Below, piece by piece: positions 10,935 through 30,255 of a stretch of 39,708 nt of DNA. The translations under genes and the position numbers were made by a program. The notes beneath the pieces are model-generated. The model searched no databases and was not told the origin of the DNA. It saw only the letters and a list, made by a program, of their open reading frames with translations. The first letter of the stretch is position 1, and each line of letters begins with the position of its first letter. Origin of the DNA: an uncultured Pseudomonadota bacterium. Lineage in GTDB: Bacteria > Myxococcota_A > UBA796 > SXON01. The DNA is taken from positions 1 to 39,708 of the forward strand of contig CAJBVW010000548.1 of NCBI GenBank assembly GCA_903959175.1. The letters are read 5' to 3'.

Positions 10935-13496
10935 GTGCTGCTGCTCCTCCTGTCCCTCCTCCCGCTCGCCGCCGCGCAGGACGCGCCGTCGGCCGCGCCG
11001 CCCGCCGCCCCCGCCGAGGGCGAGCTCCCGCCGCTCCTGAAGGACCCGGCGCTCCTCGACTTCGTGCAGGCGCCGTACCCGCCCGCCGCCGAGGCCGCGG
11101 GCGTCGAGGCGAGCGTCCGCCTCCTCCTCGAGATCGACGCCACCGGCCTCGTCACCGCGGTCGAGGTCGTCACCCCCGCCGGGCAGGGCTTCGACGAGGC
11201 CGCCGTCGAGGCCGCGCGGCAGTTCCGCTTCTCCCCCGCGGAGGACGCCACCGGCCCCGTGCCCGTCGCCGTCGAGTTCGACTACGGTTTCAAGCTCGCC
11301 GTTCAGCCGCCGCCCGCCGAAGAGGCCGCGCCCGCCCTCGCGATCGAGGGCACCCTCCGCGAGATGGCGACGCGCGCGCCCATCCCCGGCGCCGCCGTGC
11401 AGGTGCGCCGCGGCGAGGTCACGATCGCGACCACCACGACCGACGCCGAGGGCAGGTTCGCCCTCTCCGGCATCGACCCCGGCGCGGTCACCCTCGTCGC
11501 CTTCACGCCCGAGCACCAACGCGACGAGCTCGACGTCACCGTCGTCGCCGGCGAGGTCACCGAACTCGGCCTGTGGCTCCGGCGCCTGAGCTACCGCGGC
11601 GCCGGCGTCGTCGGCATCTACGAGAAGGAGCGCCCCCCCGAGGTCACGCGGCGCACGCTCACGATGGCCGAGGTGCGGCGGGTGCCCGGGACCTTCGGCG
11701 ACCCCGTGCGCGTCATCCAGAGCCTCCCCGGCGCGGCGCGCGCACCCTTCGGGACCGGCCTGCTCGTCCTCCGCGGCGCCAACCCGGAGGACAGCAACGT
11801 CTACGTCGACGGGGTGGAGGTGCCGCTGGTGTACCACCTCGGCGGCTTCCGCTCGATCCTCAACCCCGACCTCATCTCCGCCGTCGACTACCTGCCGGGC
11901 ACCTACAGCGCCCGCTACGGGCGTTCGACCGGCGGCGTCATCGACGTGAGCACCACGTCCACCTACCCGGACCAGACCAAGCTGGTGTGGCGGACGGACG
12001 TGCTCGACACCGGCGTGTTCGCCACCGGCAAGGTCGGGAAGAAGGGGAAGGACAAGGTTGGTTTCTCGGTTGGAGCCCGGCGCTCCTACATCGACGCCAT
12101 CCTCGGCGCCGCGCTCGCCAACGCCGAGTTCTACGCCGCGCCCCGCTGGCTCGACTACCAACTCAAGATCGAGGCCCTCGACGCCGGCGACAACGAGCTC
12201 TCCGCGCTCCTCTTCGGCTTCCAGGACGACCTCATCGTCCGCACCGACGCCGGCGAGGCCGACCAGATCGGCGTCCACTACTCCACTCACCGCCTCGTGC
12301 TCCGCTGGGCCCGCCCGCTCTCGGACACCCTGAAGTTCCAGCTCCAACCCGCCTTCGGCATCGACGGCACGCGCGTCGGCTTCGGCAGCGACATCGGCAT
12401 CGAGCTGGACGCCGTACGGGTCGACCTCCGCGGCGAGCTCCGCTGGACCCCCTCCGAGGCCCTCTCCGTGGCCGCCGGCCTCGACAGCGAGGCCGCCCGG
12501 TACGACCTCTCCGTCTACGTCGCCGGCGTGCCGGTGGACGGCGAGGATCCGCTCTCCGAGGAGGAGCCCCTCACCATCGACGGCGGCCGGTGGAACGCCT
12601 ACCCGGACTCCTTCCTCGAGGCGCAGATCCGCCCCTTCGCCGACCGCGATCGCCTGCTCGTGGTCGCCGGCCTGCGCCTCGACGGCATCGTGCGCGACGA
12701 CGAGCCCGTGCAGGTCGCGCCCGACCCGCGCTTCGCCGTGCGCTTCGAGCCCTTCGAGGGCGCCACGATCAAGGCGGGCACGGGGCTCTACCACCAGCCA
12801 CCGCAGAACGCGCAGCTCATCGGGGAGGCCTTCTTCGAGCGCGCCTGGGGCAACGAGCTCGGCTGGGAGCAGAAGTTCAGCCCCGCCATCAGCGCCGACG
12901 CGACGGGCTTCTACCGGTGGATGGACCCCCTCGCGCTCGGCTTCGGCGGGGAAGGGGACACCGGCGTCGGCCGCGCCTACGGCCTCGAGGTGATGGTCCG
13001 GCACGCCCGGATCGACCGCTTCTTCGGGTGGATCTCGTACACGCTCTCCAAGTCCGAGCGCAACGACACCCCCGACGATCCCGAGGCCTGGTACCCCTTC
13101 GACTTCGACCAGACCCACATCCTCACCGGCGTCGCGGGCTACCGGCTCCCGCTCGACTTCGAGGTCTCCGCGCGCGTCCAGTACGTCACGGGCAACCCCT
13201 ACACCCCCTACGACGGGCAGGGGCTCTACCTCATGGACGAGGGGCGCTACCTCGGCTTTCCGAGCGCGGACACCAACAGCGAGCGCCTCTCCGCGTACTA
13301 CGCGGCCGACATCCGCGTCTCGCGGCTCTTCACCTTCAAACACTGGCAGCTCGAGGTCTTCGGGGACGTCCTCAACGTCATCCACGGCGACAACCCCGAG
13401 TTCCAGCTCTACAACTACGACTACACCGAGAGCGCCACGATCAACGGGCTGCCGCTGGTCCCCTCGCTCGGCTTCCAGGTGGAGGTGAACCTGTGA
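10935..13496 (+). CDS. TonB-dependent receptor with its own TonB C-terminal domain
   Basis: An 853-residue outer-membrane protein. Signal peptide 1-14 (LLPLAAAQ). Residues about 45-118 are a TonB_C-type domain (YPPAAEAAGVEASVRLLLEID ending in ARQFRFSPA), normally found on the energy-transducing TonB protein. Residues 135-215 are a carboxypeptidase-regulatory-like beta-sandwich (GRFALSGIDPGAVTL). The plug (about 235-340) has LVLRGANPEDSNVYVDGVEVP and YSARYGRSTGGVIDV, and the rest is a beta-barrel with aromatic girdles. Receptors of this type import nutrients using TonB-ExbB-ExbD energy; the substrate is unknown. The GTG start at 10935 begins the signal peptide. TACCGG nine bases upstream is a possible -10. 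The stop overlaps the start of the following lipoprotein gene. Confidence 0.88.
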   Translation: MLLLLLSLLPLAAAQDAPSAAPPAAPAEGELPPLLKDPALLDFVQAPYPPAAEAAGVEASVRLLLEIDATGLVTAVEVVTPAGQGFDEAAVEAARQFRFSPAEDATGPVPVAVEFDYGFKLAVQPPPAEEAAPALAIEGTLREMATRAPIPGAAVQVRRGEVTIATTTTDAEGRFALSGIDPGAVTLVAFTPEHQRDELDVTVVAGEVTELGLWLRRLSYRGAGVVGIYEKERPPEVTRRTLTMAEVRRVPGTFGDPVRVIQSLPGAARAPFGTGLLVLRGANPEDSNVYVDGVEVPLVYHLGGFRSILNPDLISAVDYLPGTYSARYGRSTGGVIDVSTTSTYPDQTKLVWRTDVLDTGVFATGKVGKKGKDKVGFSVGARRSYIDAILGAALANAEFYAAPRWLDYQLKIEALDAGDNELSALLFGFQDDLIVRTDAGEADQIGVHYSTHRLVLRWARPLSDTLKFQLQPAFGIDGTRVGFGSDIGIELDAVRVDLRGELRWTPSEALSVAAGLDSEAARYDLSVYVAGVPVDGEDPLSEEEPLTIDGGRWNAYPDSFLEAQIRPFADRDRLLVVAGLRLDGIVRDDEPVQVAPDPRFAVRFEPFEGATIKAGTGLYHQPPQNAQLIGEAFFERAWGNELGWEQKFSPAISADATGFYRWMDPLALGFGGEGDTGVGRAYGLEVMVRHARIDRFFGWISYTLSKSERNDTPDDPEAWYPFDFDQTHILTGVAGYRLPLDFEVSARVQYVTGNPYTPYDGQGLYLMDEGRYLGFPSADTNSERLSAYYAADIRVSRLFTFKHWQLEVFGDVLNVIHGDNPEFQLYNYDYTESATINGLPLVPSLGFQVEVNL

Positions 13497-20742: not shown

Positions 20743-22758
20743 ATGCCGTACACCGCGTGGGCCCGGCGCGTCCTCACGGGGACCACCCTCGCCGACAAGC
20801 TCGCGCCGCCCGTCGCCGCGCGCGAGGGGGACGCGCGCGCCCCCTCCGACGCGCTCCCCGACGTGCCCGGCCGCCCCGCCGGCCTCGCGCTCCCGCCGCG
20901 CGGCGCCACCGTCCGGTCGGCCTTCCCCGCCGAGGCCACCCTCCACCAGCCCGAGTCCCGCGGCCGCGCCCTCCACTTCTTCGCCAACCACGAGCTCCTC
21001 GCGCTCGAGCTGATCGCGCTCGCGCTCGTGCGCTTCCCCGAGGCGCCCGCGGCCTTCCGTCGCGGCCTCGTGAACATCGCCGCCGACGAGCAGCGCCACC
21101 TCGCGAGCTACCTCGCGCGCATGGAGGCCGTGGGCGTCCGCTTCGGAGACCTCCCGGTCAACCGCTACTTCTGGGACGCCCTCGCCGGGGCCGATCCGCT
21201 GCCGCTCGTGGCCGGGCTTTCGCTCACGTTCGAGCAGGCCAACCTGGACTATGCCGCGTACTACGCCGCGGCTTTCCGCCGCGTGGGGGACGACGACACC
21301 GCCGCCGTCCTCGACGAGGTCCTCGCGGACGAGATCCGCCACGTCAAGCACGGCCTCGCGTGGTTCGACACCTGGCGCGACCCCACCGTGTCCCGCTGGG
21401 ACGCGTGGGTCGCCGCGCTCCCGCCCCCGCTCACCCCTGCGCGCGCCAAGGGCATCCGCTTCTTCCGGGAGCCGCGCGTCGCCGCCGGCTTCGACGCGGA
21501 CACGATCACCCGCCTGGAGGGCCACGGCGCGTCCAAGGGGCGGGCGCCGCGCGTGTTCAGCTTCCACCCTGAGGTGGAGGGGGAGGTCGCCGGGCTCCCC
21601 GCCACCCCAACGGGCGCCCGGATCGCTCGTGATCTCGCGTCGTTGATGGTCTTCCTCTCGGGAAAGGATGATGTGGTGCTCGTGCCCCGCGCGCCCACCC
21701 CGCCCTTCCTCGCGGAGCTCGCGCGGGCCGGGTTCCCGCCGCCCGAGGTCGTCGAGGGCGGGCCCGCGGCGCTCCGAGGGCGCCCGATCGCGGAGCTCAA
21801 GCCCTGGGGGTGGAGCCCGGCCGTGGCCGAGGCGCTGGCGCCGCTCGCGGAGGGCGGCGCGCGCTGGGACCCCCGCTGGCGGGCGCTCTACGAGAAGGGC
21901 TGGTCCGCCGCCCGCCTCGCCGAGCGCCCCGATCTGTGTGATCCCGCCGTGGTCGGCGTGGTGTGCCGCTCCCGCGCCGATGTGGACCGCGTCACGACGG
22001 GCGCGAGCGTCTACAAGGCCCCCCTCGGCACGGCCGGCCGTGGCATGCGGCGCGCGTCGGACCCCGGCGCGGCGGCGTGGGCGGAGGCCGTGATCGCGGC
22101 GCAGGGCTCCGTCGTCGTGGAGCCGTGGCTCGACCGCGTGATCGATCTCTCCTTGCAGTTCGACGTGGGCGCGGACGGGCGCGTCACGACGGACGGCTGG
22201 GGCCGCTTCCTCACCGACGCGCGCGGGCGCTACCGCGGCGCCGTGCTCGGCGACGTGTTGCGGGACCAACCGGGAGATGTCAAGCGCCTCCTCGCGGAGC
22301 AGGGGGATCGTCTCGGTTTGGCGGCGAAGCATCTCGGCGCGGCGATGGCGGCGGCGGGCTTCGCGGGCCCCGCGGGGCTCGACGCGCTCGTCTACCGGGC
22401 GCCCGGAGGCGCGCTCGCGCTAAAGCCCATCGTGGAGCTCAACCCCCGCGTCACGATGGGCCGCGTCGCCCGCGCCATCGGGCGCCGCGTGCGGCGGGAC
22501 CGCGTCGGGCTCTGGACCCAGGTCTCCCGCGACGAGGTGCGCGCCGCCGGCTTCGGGGGCCTCGCCGCGTGGGCGGAGAGCGTGGGTGCGCGGGCCCCGC
22601 TCCGCGTCGAGGGCGAGCCCGCGCTCCTCGGCGGCGGCGCGCTCTTCACGACGGACCCCGCGCGCGCCGAGCGCATCGTCACCGTGCTCGTGGTGGGGGA
22701 TTCCCTCGCCGCGTGTCGCGAACGCCTCGGCCTCGACCCTTACGAAGCGTCGGCTTAG
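20743..22758 (+). CDS. DUF455 ferritin-like domain fused to an ATP-grasp ligase domain
   Basis: A 671-residue protein of two parts. Residues about 60-260 are a DUF455 ferritin-like di-iron domain related to MiaE-type hydroxylases: FANHELLALE (Glu84), ADEQRHL (Glu116, His119), LTFEQANLDY (Glu164) and DEIRHVKHG (Glu197, His200, His203). These give a complete two-iron ligand set. Residues about 300-650 show ATP-grasp features: YKAPLGTAGRGM (Lys425), VVVEPWLDR (Glu460), GLDALVYR (Asp547) and VELNPRVTMG (Glu565, Asn567). ATP-grasp enzymes form amide or peptide bonds through acyl phosphates. No export signal, so cytoplasmic. The product is unknown; oxidation and ligation of one small molecule or peptide is a plausible inference. 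It leads the operon with atl, waaA-lpxK and the acyltransferase. Confidence 0.82.
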   Translation: MPYTAWARRVLTGTTLADKLAPPVAAREGDARAPSDALPDVPGRPAGLALPPRGATVRSAFPAEATLHQPESRGRALHFFANHELLALELIALALVRFPEAPAAFRRGLVNIAADEQRHLASYLARMEAVGVRFGDLPVNRYFWDALAGADPLPLVAGLSLTFEQANLDYAAYYAAAFRRVGDDDTAAVLDEVLADEIRHVKHGLAWFDTWRDPTVSRWDAWVAALPPPLTPARAKGIRFFREPRVAAGFDADTITRLEGHGASKGRAPRVFSFHPEVEGEVAGLPATPTGARIARDLASLMVFLSGKDDVVLVPRAPTPPFLAELARAGFPPPEVVEGGPAALRGRPIAELKPWGWSPAVAEALAPLAEGGARWDPRWRALYEKGWSAARLAERPDLCDPAVVGVVCRSRADVDRVTTGASVYKAPLGTAGRGMRRASDPGAAAWAEAVIAAQGSVVVEPWLDRVIDLSLQFDVGADGRVTTDGWGRFLTDARGRYRGAVLGDVLRDQPGDVKRLLAEQGDRLGLAAKHLGAAMAAAGFAGPAGLDALVYRAPGGALALKPIVELNPRVTMGRVARAIGRRVRRDRVGLWTQVSRDEVRAAGFGGLAAWAESVGARAPLRVEGEPALLGGGALFTTDPARAERIVTVLVVGDSLAACRERLGLDPYEASA

Positions 22759-22762
22759 GCCG

Positions 22763-23074
22763 ATGGAGATGCGCTTTCGTGAACGGGTGATGGCCGTGGT
22801 GGAGCAGGTGCCCGCGGGGCGGGTCATGGGGTACGGCCACGTCGGCGCCGCCCTCGGCTCGCCGCGCCTCGCCCGCCAGGTCGGCTGGGCGCTCGCGTCG
22901 CTCCCCGCGGGCACCACCGTCCCGTGGCACCGGATTATCCGCTCCTCCGGCCACGTCGCGCTCCAGGGAGATCCCGCCCGCGGCACGCTCCAGCGCGCGC
23001 TCCTTGAGCAGGAGGGCGTCGTCTTCGAGGGAGACCGCGTGCCGATGCCCGCCTACGGGTGGTCCCCCGCGTGA
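22763..23074 (+). CDS. Alkyltransferase-like protein (ATL), Cys replaced by Trp
   Basis: A 103-residue protein matching the DNA-binding domain of O6-methylguanine methyltransferase (VPAGRVMGYGHVGAALG, RQVGWALASL). The catalytic PCHR motif reads PWHR here (Trp55), the hallmark of ATL proteins such as S. pombe Atl1 and E. coli YbaZ. These bind O6-alkylguanine without repairing it and hand the lesion to nucleotide excision repair. The ATG at 22763 lies four bases after the previous stop; the open frame upstream is a shadow of the DUF455 gene. Its stop overlaps the next GTG, so a DNA repair gene is embedded in a lipid A operon, perhaps only for co-expression. Confidence 0.9.
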   Translation: MEMRFRERVMAVVEQVPAGRVMGYGHVGAALGSPRLARQVGWALASLPAGTTVPWHRIIRSSGHVALQGDPARGTLQRALLEQEGVVFEGDRVPMPAYGWSPA

Positions 23075-25185
23075 TCGTCCTCTACGGCCTCCTCACCACG
23101 CTCCTCGCGCCGCTGATCGCGCTCGCCGTGCTCGTGCACCCGCGGCTGCGCGGCCACGCCCGCGAGCGCCTCGGCTGGCCCTCGCTCGAGATCGAGCCCG
23201 GCGCGGTCTGGATCCACGCGGCCTCCCTCGGCGAGGGGCGCGCGGCCGCGGCCCTCGTCGCCGCGCTGCGCCCGCACGCCGGCGGCGCGCCGATCCTGCG
23301 CACCTGCACCAGCGACCACGCCCGCGACCAGCGCGTCGGCGCCGATCAGACCTGCTTCCTCCCGGTGGACGTGCCCCTCGTCGTCGGGGCGTGGCTCGAT
23401 CGGGTACGCCCCCGCTGCCTCCTCCTCATCGAGGCCGAGCTCTGGCCCGCGCTCCTCGCCGGCTGCCGTCGCCGCGGCATCCCGGTCGTGGTGGTTGGCG
23501 CCCGCGTGGGCCCCGGAATGCGACGCCTCCAGGCCATCCCGGGCCTCTTCGGCGCGCTCACCCGCGGCGTGACGTGGCTCCCGGCCGACGCCGCCGCCGC
23601 CGCGCTCCTCGGCGGCACGCCCCTCGGCGAGCTCAAGCGCGAAGCGCCCGCGCCCGCCCCGGTCCTCACCTGGACCCGGCCGACGATCGTGGCGGGATGT
23701 ACCTGGGAAGGCGAGGAGCTCGCGCTGCTCGACGCGATGCTCGCGCTCGAGCCCCAGCCGCTCCTGGTGCTCGCCCCGCGCGATCCCCAGCGCTTCCCGG
23801 CCGTCGCCGCCCTGCTGGACGCGCGCAGCGAGCGCTGGGCACGGCGCTCGGCCCTCGGCGGCGCCGTGCCCCCGGACATCGACGTCGTGCTGCTCGACAC
23901 CCTCGGCGAGCTCCCGGGGCTCTACGCCGGCGCCACCGCCGCGTTCGTGGGCGGCACCTACGAGGCGCGCACGGGCGGTCACAGCCCCGCCGAGGCGCAG
24001 GCCGCCGGGTGCCCCATCGTGCACGGCCCCTTCACGGAGGGCCACGCCGCCGCCTGGGCGGACGTGGAGAGCTTCCCCGCGCTCTCCCCGGACGACCTCC
24101 CGATGGCCTTCGTGGACGCCTTCGCCGCCCGCCCGAACGTGACACCGCTACCGACGCGCGGGGTGGCGGAACGCGCCGTCGCCGTGCTCGCGCCGCTGCT
24201 CGCGGGGCCCATCCCGCCCGAGCGCCCCCTGCGCCCGTGGCTCTACCCGCTCGTGCCCGTCTGGATGCTCGGCGTGGCGCTCCGCCCCGGCGGCGCGCGC
24301 AAGGCCCCGGTCCCCGTCGTCTCCGTCGGCGCGCTCACCGCCGGCGGCACGGGCAAGACCCCCGTCGCGCGCTGGCTCGCCCAGCACCTCGCTGACCTCG
24401 ATCCCGTCGTCGTCTCCCGCGGGTACGGCCGTCGTAAGGGAGACGACGTGCGGCTGCACGGCGAGGCCGTCGACCTCGGGGACGAGCTCGTGATGCTCGC
24501 CCGCGGCGGCCTCCGCGTCGCCTCCGCCCCGGACCGCCTCGCCGGGGTGCGCGCGGCGGTGGAGCACGGCGCGCGGCTCGCCATCCTCGACGATGCCCTT
24601 CAGTACCGCGCCATCGCGCGGGACCTCGAGGTCGTCGTCGTCGACGCGCGGTGGCCCCACGGCGGCGGCCCGATCCCCGTCGGGACGGCGCGGGTGCCGC
24701 GCTCCTGGCTCGCGAAGGCCGACGTCGTCTGGGTCAACCACGGGCCGTTGCCGCCGCCGCTCGCCCGCCACGTCCGCCCCGGCGCCGTCGTCGTCCAGGC
24801 GCGCTACCGCCCAGTCGGCTGGCTCCACCTCGGCAAGCGCGTCCCGCTCGACGCGCTCCCGCACCTCCCGGCCGCGGCCTTCGCGGGCGTCGCGCGCCCC
24901 GAGGGCTTCTTCCAGGCCGTGCGCGGCCTCGGCGTCGCGCTCGACCGGACGTGGAGCTTCCCGGACCACCACCCCTACGCCTGGGCGGACCTCCAGAACA
25001 TCGAGGCGTGGATGGACGACCACGTCGTCCTCACGACCGAGAAGGACGCCGCGCGCCTGCCGCCGACCTCCGGGGTCTACGCCCTGCTCGTGGACGTCGA
25101 GATCGTGGAGGGGCGGGACGCCCTGGTGGCCCGCCTCGCCCAGCTCGCGGAGCGGGTGCGCCCCGCGGCGCCCGCGAGCGCCTGA
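23071..25185 (+). CDS. waaA-lpxK: Fused Kdo transferase (WaaA) and lipid A 4'-kinase (LpxK)
   Basis: A 704-residue bifunctional enzyme. Residues 1-385 are WaaA/KdtA: an N-terminal membrane helix, HAASLGEG (catalytic Glu55), FLPVD, EAELWP, and GGTYEARTGGHSPAEAQ with PIVHGP. It adds Kdo to lipid IVA. Residues about 386-704 are LpxK: a hydrophobic lead, VSVGALTAGGTGKTP (Walker A, about 418-431), VSRGYGRR, LDDALQY, FPDHHPYAW and VLTTEKDAARL. It phosphorylates the 4' position of the disaccharide precursor. Both halves look complete, and no stop or frameshift separates them. The GTG at 23071 overlaps the ATL stop; GTG 23059 is an alternative. In E. coli LpxK acts before WaaA, so the fusion joins consecutive steps at the inner membrane. 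A lipid A acyltransferase follows. Confidence 0.93.
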   Translation: MIVLYGLLTTLLAPLIALAVLVHPRLRGHARERLGWPSLEIEPGAVWIHAASLGEGRAAAALVAALRPHAGGAPILRTCTSDHARDQRVGADQTCFLPVDVPLVVGAWLDRVRPRCLLLIEAELWPALLAGCRRRGIPVVVVGARVGPGMRRLQAIPGLFGALTRGVTWLPADAAAAALLGGTPLGELKREAPAPAPVLTWTRPTIVAGCTWEGEELALLDAMLALEPQPLLVLAPRDPQRFPAVAALLDARSERWARRSALGGAVPPDIDVVLLDTLGELPGLYAGATAAFVGGTYEARTGGHSPAEAQAAGCPIVHGPFTEGHAAAWADVESFPALSPDDLPMAFVDAFAARPNVTPLPTRGVAERAVAVLAPLLAGPIPPERPLRPWLYPLVPVWMLGVALRPGGARKAPVPVVSVGALTAGGTGKTPVARWLAQHLADLDPVVVSRGYGRRKGDDVRLHGEAVDLGDELVMLARGGLRVASAPDRLAGVRAAVEHGARLAILDDALQYRAIARDLEVVVVDARWPHGGGPIPVGTARVPRSWLAKADVVWVNHGPLPPPLARHVRPGAVVVQARYRPVGWLHLGKRVPLDALPHLPAAAFAGVARPEGFFQAVRGLGVALDRTWSFPDHHPYAWADLQNIEAWMDDHVVLTTEKDAARLPPTSGVYALLVDVEIVEGRDALVARLAQLAERVRPAAPASA

Positions 25186-28260: not shown

Positions 28261-30255
28261 CTACGGCACCCGCTCGATCTCGATCCGCTCGATCGTGTCC
28301 CCTACCTGGATCGCCGAGGCGCTGCGCATCCCGTAGGTGACGTGTCCGAAGGCGGTGTAGGTGCCGTCGAGGTGCGGCTGGGGCGAGAGCGTGATGAACC
28401 ACTGGCTGCCGCCCGTGTCGGGGCCCGAGAGCGCCATGCCCATCACGCCCGTCGTGTACGGCAGGGTGTTGATCTCGTCGGGGATCTCGTAGCCGGGCCC
28501 GCCCCAGCCGTCCCCGCGGGGGTCGCCGGTCTGGATGACGAAGTCGGCCACGACGCGGTGGAAGCGCAGGCCGTCGTAGTACCCGTCCTCCGCGAGGCGC
28601 GCGAAGTTCCACACGGTGTAGGGCGCGGCCTCCGGCGAGAGCGCGACGCGGATCTCGCCTTCGCTCGTGAAGATCCGCGCGGAGCGGATGCGGCGGGCGT
28701 CTTCGAGCAGCGGGAGGCGGCGCGCGGGGTGGCGGTCGCGGGGCGGGGCCACCTGGAGGAGCGCGGCGAGTCGGTCGGCGTCGGCGGCGATGGCGGGGTC
28801 CCGCAGCCAGGGCCGGATCGCGGCGGCGGCGGCGGGGCCCGGCCGGGGGAGGCGGCCGGTGTTGTAGACGGCTACGAGCGCCTTGACGCCCGCGATGGCC
28901 TGCTCCGCGGAGAGGCCGTTGCGCCGGAGGTACGCCAGGAGCGGCGCCTCGGAGGCGGGGTCGGGGTTCTCGCCGAGGGCCTGCGCGGCGGCCTGCGCGA
29001 TCACGGCGTCCCCGCCCTGGAGGAGCTCGATCAGCTCGGCCGGGCGCGGCTTCCCGTCGAGGAGCACCCCGGCCGCGGCGCTCCGGAGCGCGGGTTCGGT
29101 GGCCTTGAGCGCGAAGAAGAGGAGGCGGTTCCTATCCTTGAGCGACTCGACCGCGGCGATGCGCACGATCATCGGCTCGCTCGGGTCGGTCCACTTCGCG
29201 GCGGCCTCGGGCAGCGCGTCCTTCGCGGCGAGGGCGCGGAGTGCGGCGGCGCGCTCCTCGGCGACGGGCGAGGCGAAGCCGCGCGCGAGGAGGCTCTTCG
29301 CGTCCACGCCAGGGGCGGCGCCGACGGCGGTGATGGCCTCGATGCGGACGGAGAGATCGGGGTCCTCGAGGAGCCGCGCGAGCACGGGAGTGAGGCCCGG
29401 CGCGGCGTGTTTGGCGGCGCCGCGGGCCGCGGCGATGCGCACGGCGTTGTCGGGGTCGCGGGCGCCGAGGGTGATGCCGTCCAGCCGCGCCGCCTCGGTC
29501 GCGACGCCGAGCCACGCGCGGAGCGCCCAGGCGCGCACGAGGTGGTCGCCGTCCTCGAGCGCCAACGTGCGCATGCGCATCGCGTTGTCCGCGGAGGCGG
29601 CGGTGAGGCCCATGCGCGCGAGGGCCCAGGCGGCACGGCGGCGCGTGTCCCCGACGGGGAAGGGGGTCGCGTCGAGCAGCGCGGCGACGACGCGATCGGA
29701 GGTGGCGCCGGCCACCTTGCGCATCGCGAGGCGGCCGAGGCCGTCCGCGGCGTCCACCGCGACGGGCCCCGTGAGCGCCGGGAGCAGCATCTCGACGGCC
29801 TCCGGGCCGCCCTGCTTGCCGATGCCGACGGCGATGCGGGCCTGCACGCGCGGATCCGTCTCGACGCTCCAGCGCCGCCCGAGCGGGACGTTCCCGCCGG
29901 GGGTCTGGCCGAGGGCGAAGGCGGCGTTCTCGCGCACGCCCCGCGCCGGATCGTCGAGCAACGTGGCGAGGGGGATGAGCGCGTCGGGGTCGCGCAGGCG
30001 GCCGAGTGCGTCAGCTACGTGGGCGCGCACGTTCGGGTCGATGTGGGCCACCCACAAGGAGAACGTGCTCGGCGGGAGGCGCAGGAGCTCCATCTGCCAC
30101 ATGGCTTGCGCCACGTCCGCCGGGATGCCGTCGATGCGCGCGGCGGGCCCCGCCGTCGCGTCGAGGGTGCCGCTCACCGGCCCCGGGGGCGCCGCCGCCG
30201 CGGCCGGCACGAACGCGAGATCGGCCAGGGCCAAGGCGATGAGGAAGGCGGACAT
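28261..30255 (-). CDS. HEAT-repeat protein with C-terminal cyclophilin domain
   Basis: A 664-residue exported protein. Signal peptide 1-22 (MSAFLIALALADLAFVPAAAAA). Residues about 45-500 form an array of HEAT/PBS-lyase-type helical repeats (VRAHVADALGRLRDPDALIP, VRENAAFALGQ and many relatives, roughly 30 residues each). Residues about 525-664 are a cyclophilin: RFHRVVADFVIQTGDP, NTLPYTTGVMGMALSGPD, GGSQWFITLSPQPHLDGTYTAFG. In place of the usual Phe the motif reads SQWFIT. Cyclophilins isomerise prolyl bonds; the repeat array probably binds client proteins. The ATG at 30255 starts the signal. It is the third isomerase here and is divergent from ftsH. Confidence 0.9.
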   Translation of the reverse strand: MSAFLIALALADLAFVPAAAAAPPGPVSGTLDATAGPAARIDGIPADVAQAMWQMELLRLPPSTFSLWVAHIDPNVRAHVADALGRLRDPDALIPLATLLDDPARGVRENAAFALGQTPGGNVPLGRRWSVETDPRVQARIAVGIGKQGGPEAVEMLLPALTGPVAVDAADGLGRLAMRKVAGATSDRVVAALLDATPFPVGDTRRRAAWALARMGLTAASADNAMRMRTLALEDGDHLVRAWALRAWLGVATEAARLDGITLGARDPDNAVRIAAARGAAKHAAPGLTPVLARLLEDPDLSVRIEAITAVGAAPGVDAKSLLARGFASPVAEERAAALRALAAKDALPEAAAKWTDPSEPMIVRIAAVESLKDRNRLLFFALKATEPALRSAAAGVLLDGKPRPAELIELLQGGDAVIAQAAAQALGENPDPASEAPLLAYLRRNGLSAEQAIAGVKALVAVYNTGRLPRPGPAAAAAIRPWLRDPAIAADADRLAALLQVAPPRDRHPARRLPLLEDARRIRSARIFTSEGEIRVALSPEAAPYTVWNFARLAEDGYYDGLRFHRVVADFVIQTGDPRGDGWGGPGYEIPDEINTLPYTTGVMGMALSGPDTGGSQWFITLSPQPHLDGTYTAFGHVTYGMRSASAIQVGDTIERIEIERVP

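Follow-up and report, generated by a model that had tools for sequence, protein, structure and literature searches.

The window, meaning the whole stretch of 39,708 nucleotides analysed here, carries on its forward strand a gene in which a DUF455 domain and a predicted ATP-grasp ligase are joined in one chain. The features relevant to this gene and its immediate surroundings are as follows.

20743..22758, plus strand: fusion gene encoding 671 aa, a predicted DUF455 ferritin-like diiron domain plus a predicted ATP-grasp ligase
20743..21534, plus strand: N-terminal domain, residues 1-264, a four-helix ferritin-like bundle as judged by models, conservation and fold match
21547..22755, plus strand: C-terminal domain, residues 269-671, an ATP-grasp fold nearest to 3wvq/3wvr as judged by model, fold match and conservation
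22763..23074, plus strand: small ORF with a PWHR motif, its start inferred at an internal ATG; kept beside the fusion only in the genus and placed outside the module
23059..25185, plus strand: WaaA-LpxK fusion, a local neighbour only, also outside the module

The codon usage of the 20743-22758 ORF agrees with the coding bias of the genome, and a search of the 7.2 Mb assembly returned the fusion gene as a single copy. It starts 134 bp after the frame of an ABC transporter and is followed by the small ORF, which from its PWHR motif presumably resembles alkyltransferase-like proteins, and then directly by the WaaA-LpxK gene. In the latter, WaaA (Kdo transferase) and LpxK share one reading frame, and the length of the LpxK open frames in most relatives (approximately 640-880 aa) suggests that the WaaA-LpxK fusion is order-wide. 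The AlphaFold model of the whole DUF455-ATP-grasp chain reached a pLDDT of 93 and a pTM of 0.90, the latter suggesting that the halves pack against each other in a defined way.

The N-terminal half belongs to Pfam family DUF455 (PF04305), which spans residues 35-255 with an E value of 1.4e-43 and a score of 149.7 bits against a gathering cut-off of 34.3. Modelled separately (pLDDT 94.5), it forms a four-helix bundle of the ferritin-like diiron-carboxylate type with ligands in the order E, ExxH, E, ExxH, borne by helices 70-97 (E84), 103-129 (E116/H119), 152-180 (E164) and 184-211 (E197/H200). These six ligands, which had been proposed from the sequence of this one protein, showed no variation among 110 full-length homologues, in which K19, R44, H83, E89, Y123, W144, N167 and D169 were also invariant or nearly so. 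The nearest solved fold is that of the cyanobacterial aldehyde-deformylating oxygenase 4kvq, a ferritin-like diiron enzyme which, unlike the fusion, has no ligase domain; the match is weak (E 3e-3, TM 0.50-0.57, 16% identity), and bacterioferritins were also matched. On the basis of model and ligand set, the N-terminal half is likely a diiron oxygenase.

No Pfam family scored above its cut-off in the C-terminal half: PreAtp-grasp reached 18.8 bits (E 0.0025) against 27.5 bits, and the half was not assigned to the PGM1-type peptide ligases. Likewise, no family was assigned by an NCBIfam search, and a sequence-only PDB search with this one protein as query yielded no informative match. Comparison of the AlphaFold model using Foldseek, in contrast, placed this half among ATP-grasp folds, the alternative of a different fold having been named beforehand as the result that would overturn the assignment. 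The best match was 3wvq/3wvr (E 2.8e-12), which we take to be PGM1 of pheganomycin biosynthesis, the PDB title giving only 'ATP grasp protein', followed by the Streptomyces peptide ligase 8ynd (1.7e-11), 7r8q (1e-9) and BesA 8yi6 (4e-9), with SAOUHSC_02373 among the enzymes matched; a profile search agreed weakly (7r8p, E 0.0039; 8ynd, E 0.097). In the 8ynd alignment, K425, D547, E565, N567 and R569 lie opposite K, D, E, N and R; identity of the C-terminal half to 3wvq/3wvr and 8ynd is just 14-20%. The half thus combines the superfamily fold with two lysines and the D/E/N metal and ATP residues, comprising an E565-x-N567-x-R569 motif together with K385, K425, E460, D468 and D547. K425, D468, D547, E565, N567 and R569 were each found in 110/110 full-length homologues, K385 in 109 and E460 in 105, so that the metal and ATP residues singled out in the first-pass annotation (Lys425, Glu460, Asp547, Glu565 and Asn567) are conserved, Glu460 slightly less strictly than the others. 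The C-terminal half is, from its modelled fold and these residues, likely an ATP-dependent carboxylate-amine ligase. Together, Pfam, fold comparison and residue conservation confirmed the initial reading of a ferritin-like DUF455 and an ATP-grasp domain in a single chain; of the two outcomes named in advance as refuting it, a C-terminal half of another fold and ligands that vary among homologues, neither was seen.

The fusion protein was found in 44 of 58 relatives. Beyond these, a scan of public genomes, from which the best 80 of 423 relatives were kept, returned the fused form in at least six phyla, with records from Myxococcota, Verrucomicrobiota, Latescibacterota, Gemmatimonadota, SAR324, Bdellovibrionota and Planctomycetota, the phyla being taken from the titles of MAG records that are sometimes wrong (one was labelled Klebsiella). 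In a quick maximum-likelihood tree of the N-terminal domain, all 40 sampled fused proteins formed one clade apart from the split forms (SH-aLRT 99, the only support measure used, without bootstrap). Since all sampled fused proteins fall in this single clade, the pattern is most simply explained by fusion having happened once.

The same two domains also occur as separate genes. Among 40 stand-alone DUF455 loci sampled from the phylum of the window, 35 had a homologue of the C-terminal half downstream on the same strand; the gap was at most 165 bp in 33 loci and the gene ends overlapped in 26, by 4 bp in 17 of these, figures that depend on start codons picked by a heuristic. The diiron ligands were retained in all 40 DUF455 proteins, and the 35 split ATP-grasp proteins kept D547, N567 and R569 throughout, E565 in 33, K425 and E460 in 31 each, and D or E at position 468 in every case. 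The five loci with no downstream ATP-grasp gene comprise three members of family f16, L168, and L177, the last of which carries a distant DUF455. In f16 (L163 6325-7671, L175 and L176), DUF455 adjoins an amidohydrolase resembling MTA/SAH deaminases and the ATP-grasp gene lies elsewhere, an unlinked homologue being present in 11 of the 12 genomes searched, whereas G109 gave no more than a marginal hit (E 0.0097). Across 237 genomes, with DUF455 counted as present at E below about 1e-15, both domains occurred in 117, DUF455 only in 9, ATP-grasp only in 7 and neither in 104 (Fisher p 7e-47, a value that ignores relatedness and overstates independence because the genomes share ancestry). Rechecking removed several exceptions, as G210 proved to encode a fusion and G162 ends at a contig edge, while G084, G141 and G176 hold divergent paralogues and the G146 protein is distant. 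Such divergent paralogues in the phylum score about 93-177 bits against the clade profile, compared with more than 300 bits for the clade itself. They and the distant stand-alone DUF455 proteins of Pseudomonadota share the Pfam domain with the fusion; in the plasmid collection, only distant stand-alone forms of this kind were found, and no ATP-grasp gene lay near them in the annotated regions. Together, this evidence shows that DUF455 and ATP-grasp form a stable functional pair, fused or as neighbouring genes across phyla; the two halves very probably catalyse two steps of the same pathway, and the lasting partnership points to one defined, not yet characterised pathway in several of them.

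We consider it fairly probable that the protein is a two-step enzyme combining O2-dependent oxidation and ATP-dependent amide ligation on one small substrate derived from an amine or amino acid. In the ferritin-like half, a pair of irons would be coordinated by two Glu residues and two Glu-x-x-His units, and an organic substrate would be oxidised at the expense of O2 and electrons, while the ATP-grasp half would convert a carboxylate to an acyl phosphate and join it to an amine. Both steps would act on the same small metabolite, probably amine- or amino-acid-derived, which may be why the halves are kept fused or translationally coupled. We infer that both sites are catalytically active and share a substrate, as well as the chemistry of each step and their order, the proposed oxidation and amide formation following from what is typical of the two superfamilies. 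The folds, the invariant residues, the single-origin fusion and the split pairs all speak for the earlier suggestion that one chain combines an oxidase with an amide ligase, and its product may reasonably be supposed to be a small peptide or tailored metabolite. No reductase or ferredoxin gene was found coupled to the pair.

The fusion had been described as heading an operon with lipid A enzymes, and a modified lipid headgroup had been put forward as a product. Tailoring of lipid A or another envelope lipid would fit the arrangement in the window, where waaA-lpxK and an ABC exporter lie close to the fusion; this packing stands, but the linkage is confined to the genus. In two congeners WaaA-LpxK stays beside the fusion, with the ABC homologue already approximately 10 kb away in G001, whereas, wherever both were found in family and order members beyond the genus, lpxK lies on a different contig from the fusion, and no WaaA, LpxK or ABC transporter homologue of at least 60 bits occurs near the fusion outside the genus within this order. 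The neighbours are therefore not always lipid A genes, a lipid A operon was rejected, the headgroup idea found no support, and lipid tailoring appears scarcely credible. More generally, no neighbour besides the partner recurs widely at fused and split loci, those seen at a few loci in other phyla being a purine nucleoside phosphorylase next to the fusion (L046, L048, L070 and L088), an ABC transporter and, in Latescibacterota, an MR_MLE enolase. A RiPP or graspetide system was also rejected, as no precursor-peptide ORF was conserved: within 1.5 kb flanks, any small ORF of 18-75 aa was shared by at most 3 of the 30 fused loci compared. A hydroxamate-type metallophore, in which a PLP decarboxylase would make an amine for N-hydroxylation by the diiron half and acylation by the ATP-grasp half, is brought to mind by group II PLP decarboxylases, which in L162 and L189 (58% identical) are coupled to the pair and in L170 lie beside it. 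Such genes occur at just 3 of the 40 sampled stand-alone loci, however, and with the L170 enzyme only 33% identical to that of L162, chance may account for part of the association. The many matches of the L162 decarboxylase include one from desferrioxamine biosynthesis, but the best of them are decarboxylases that are generic or specific to acidic amino acids, and no receptor or transporter gene recurs near the pair; a metallophore is accordingly very unlikely. Judging by their homologies, the extra genes coupled in sub-clades, these decarboxylases and the deaminase-type amidohydrolase of f16, would handle amines or nitrogen compounds, in agreement with the two-step reading.

Two further explanations concern the enzyme itself. 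The ATP-grasp half may modify a protein or tRNA by attaching an amino acid or small acid, in the manner of RimK on ribosomal protein S6, with the diiron half hydroxylating the same site. The wide distribution, the large fraction of genomes and the lack of a surrounding biosynthetic cluster resemble a cell function more than a specialised pathway, but the nearest folds are small-molecule or peptide ligases and no link to translation genes recurs at fused or split loci, which leaves macromolecule modification unlikely. Many ferritin-like proteins are not oxygenases, and the N-terminal half could instead be a peroxide or oxygen sensor, or a regulator, gating the ligase. This would agree with the distant DUF455 genes that directly follow peroxiredoxin genes on Sinorhizobium and Sphingomonas plasmids (L245 4438-5750 and L246 4423-5699), whereas the invariant six-ligand set and the conserved H83, E89, Y123 and W144 suggest a catalytic pocket, and we regard a sensor as quite improbable.

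A known parallel to the two-step enzyme is the mangotoxin pathway, in which the diiron oxidase MboA and the ATP-grasp ligases MboC and MboD act in one pathway on amino acids (PMC13185094). There too a diiron oxidase is found together with ATP-grasp ligases, but the diiron fold is heme-oxygenase-like and the proteins are separate and encoded in a dedicated cluster (PMC13185094). PGM1, the ligase of the pheganomycin pathway (PMC8939145), differs in having no fused oxygenase and in working within a gene cluster. A search of the open-licence literature found no paper in which DUF455 occurs together with ferritin-like or ATP-grasp terms and no account of this fusion, and no functional study of DUF455 was recognised. 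It is tentatively suggested that the fusion represents a widely conserved, previously undescribed combination of diiron oxidation and amide formation in a single chain, producing a small molecule in many Myxococcota, Verrucomicrobiota, Latescibacterota and other bacteria. Both halves come from known superfamilies, and their partnership offers the DUF455 family a hypothesis that is concrete and can be assayed: the two predicted activities are combined in the single chain, and with the split form the steps can be removed one at a time.

Two other multidomain proteins were noted in the window. The protein encoded at 10935-13496 combines a TonB C-terminal domain, a carboxypeptidase-regulatory domain and a TonB-receptor plug, possibly a TonB fused to its own receptor, and at 28261-30255 a HEAT-repeat domain is joined to a cyclophilin-type prolyl isomerase.
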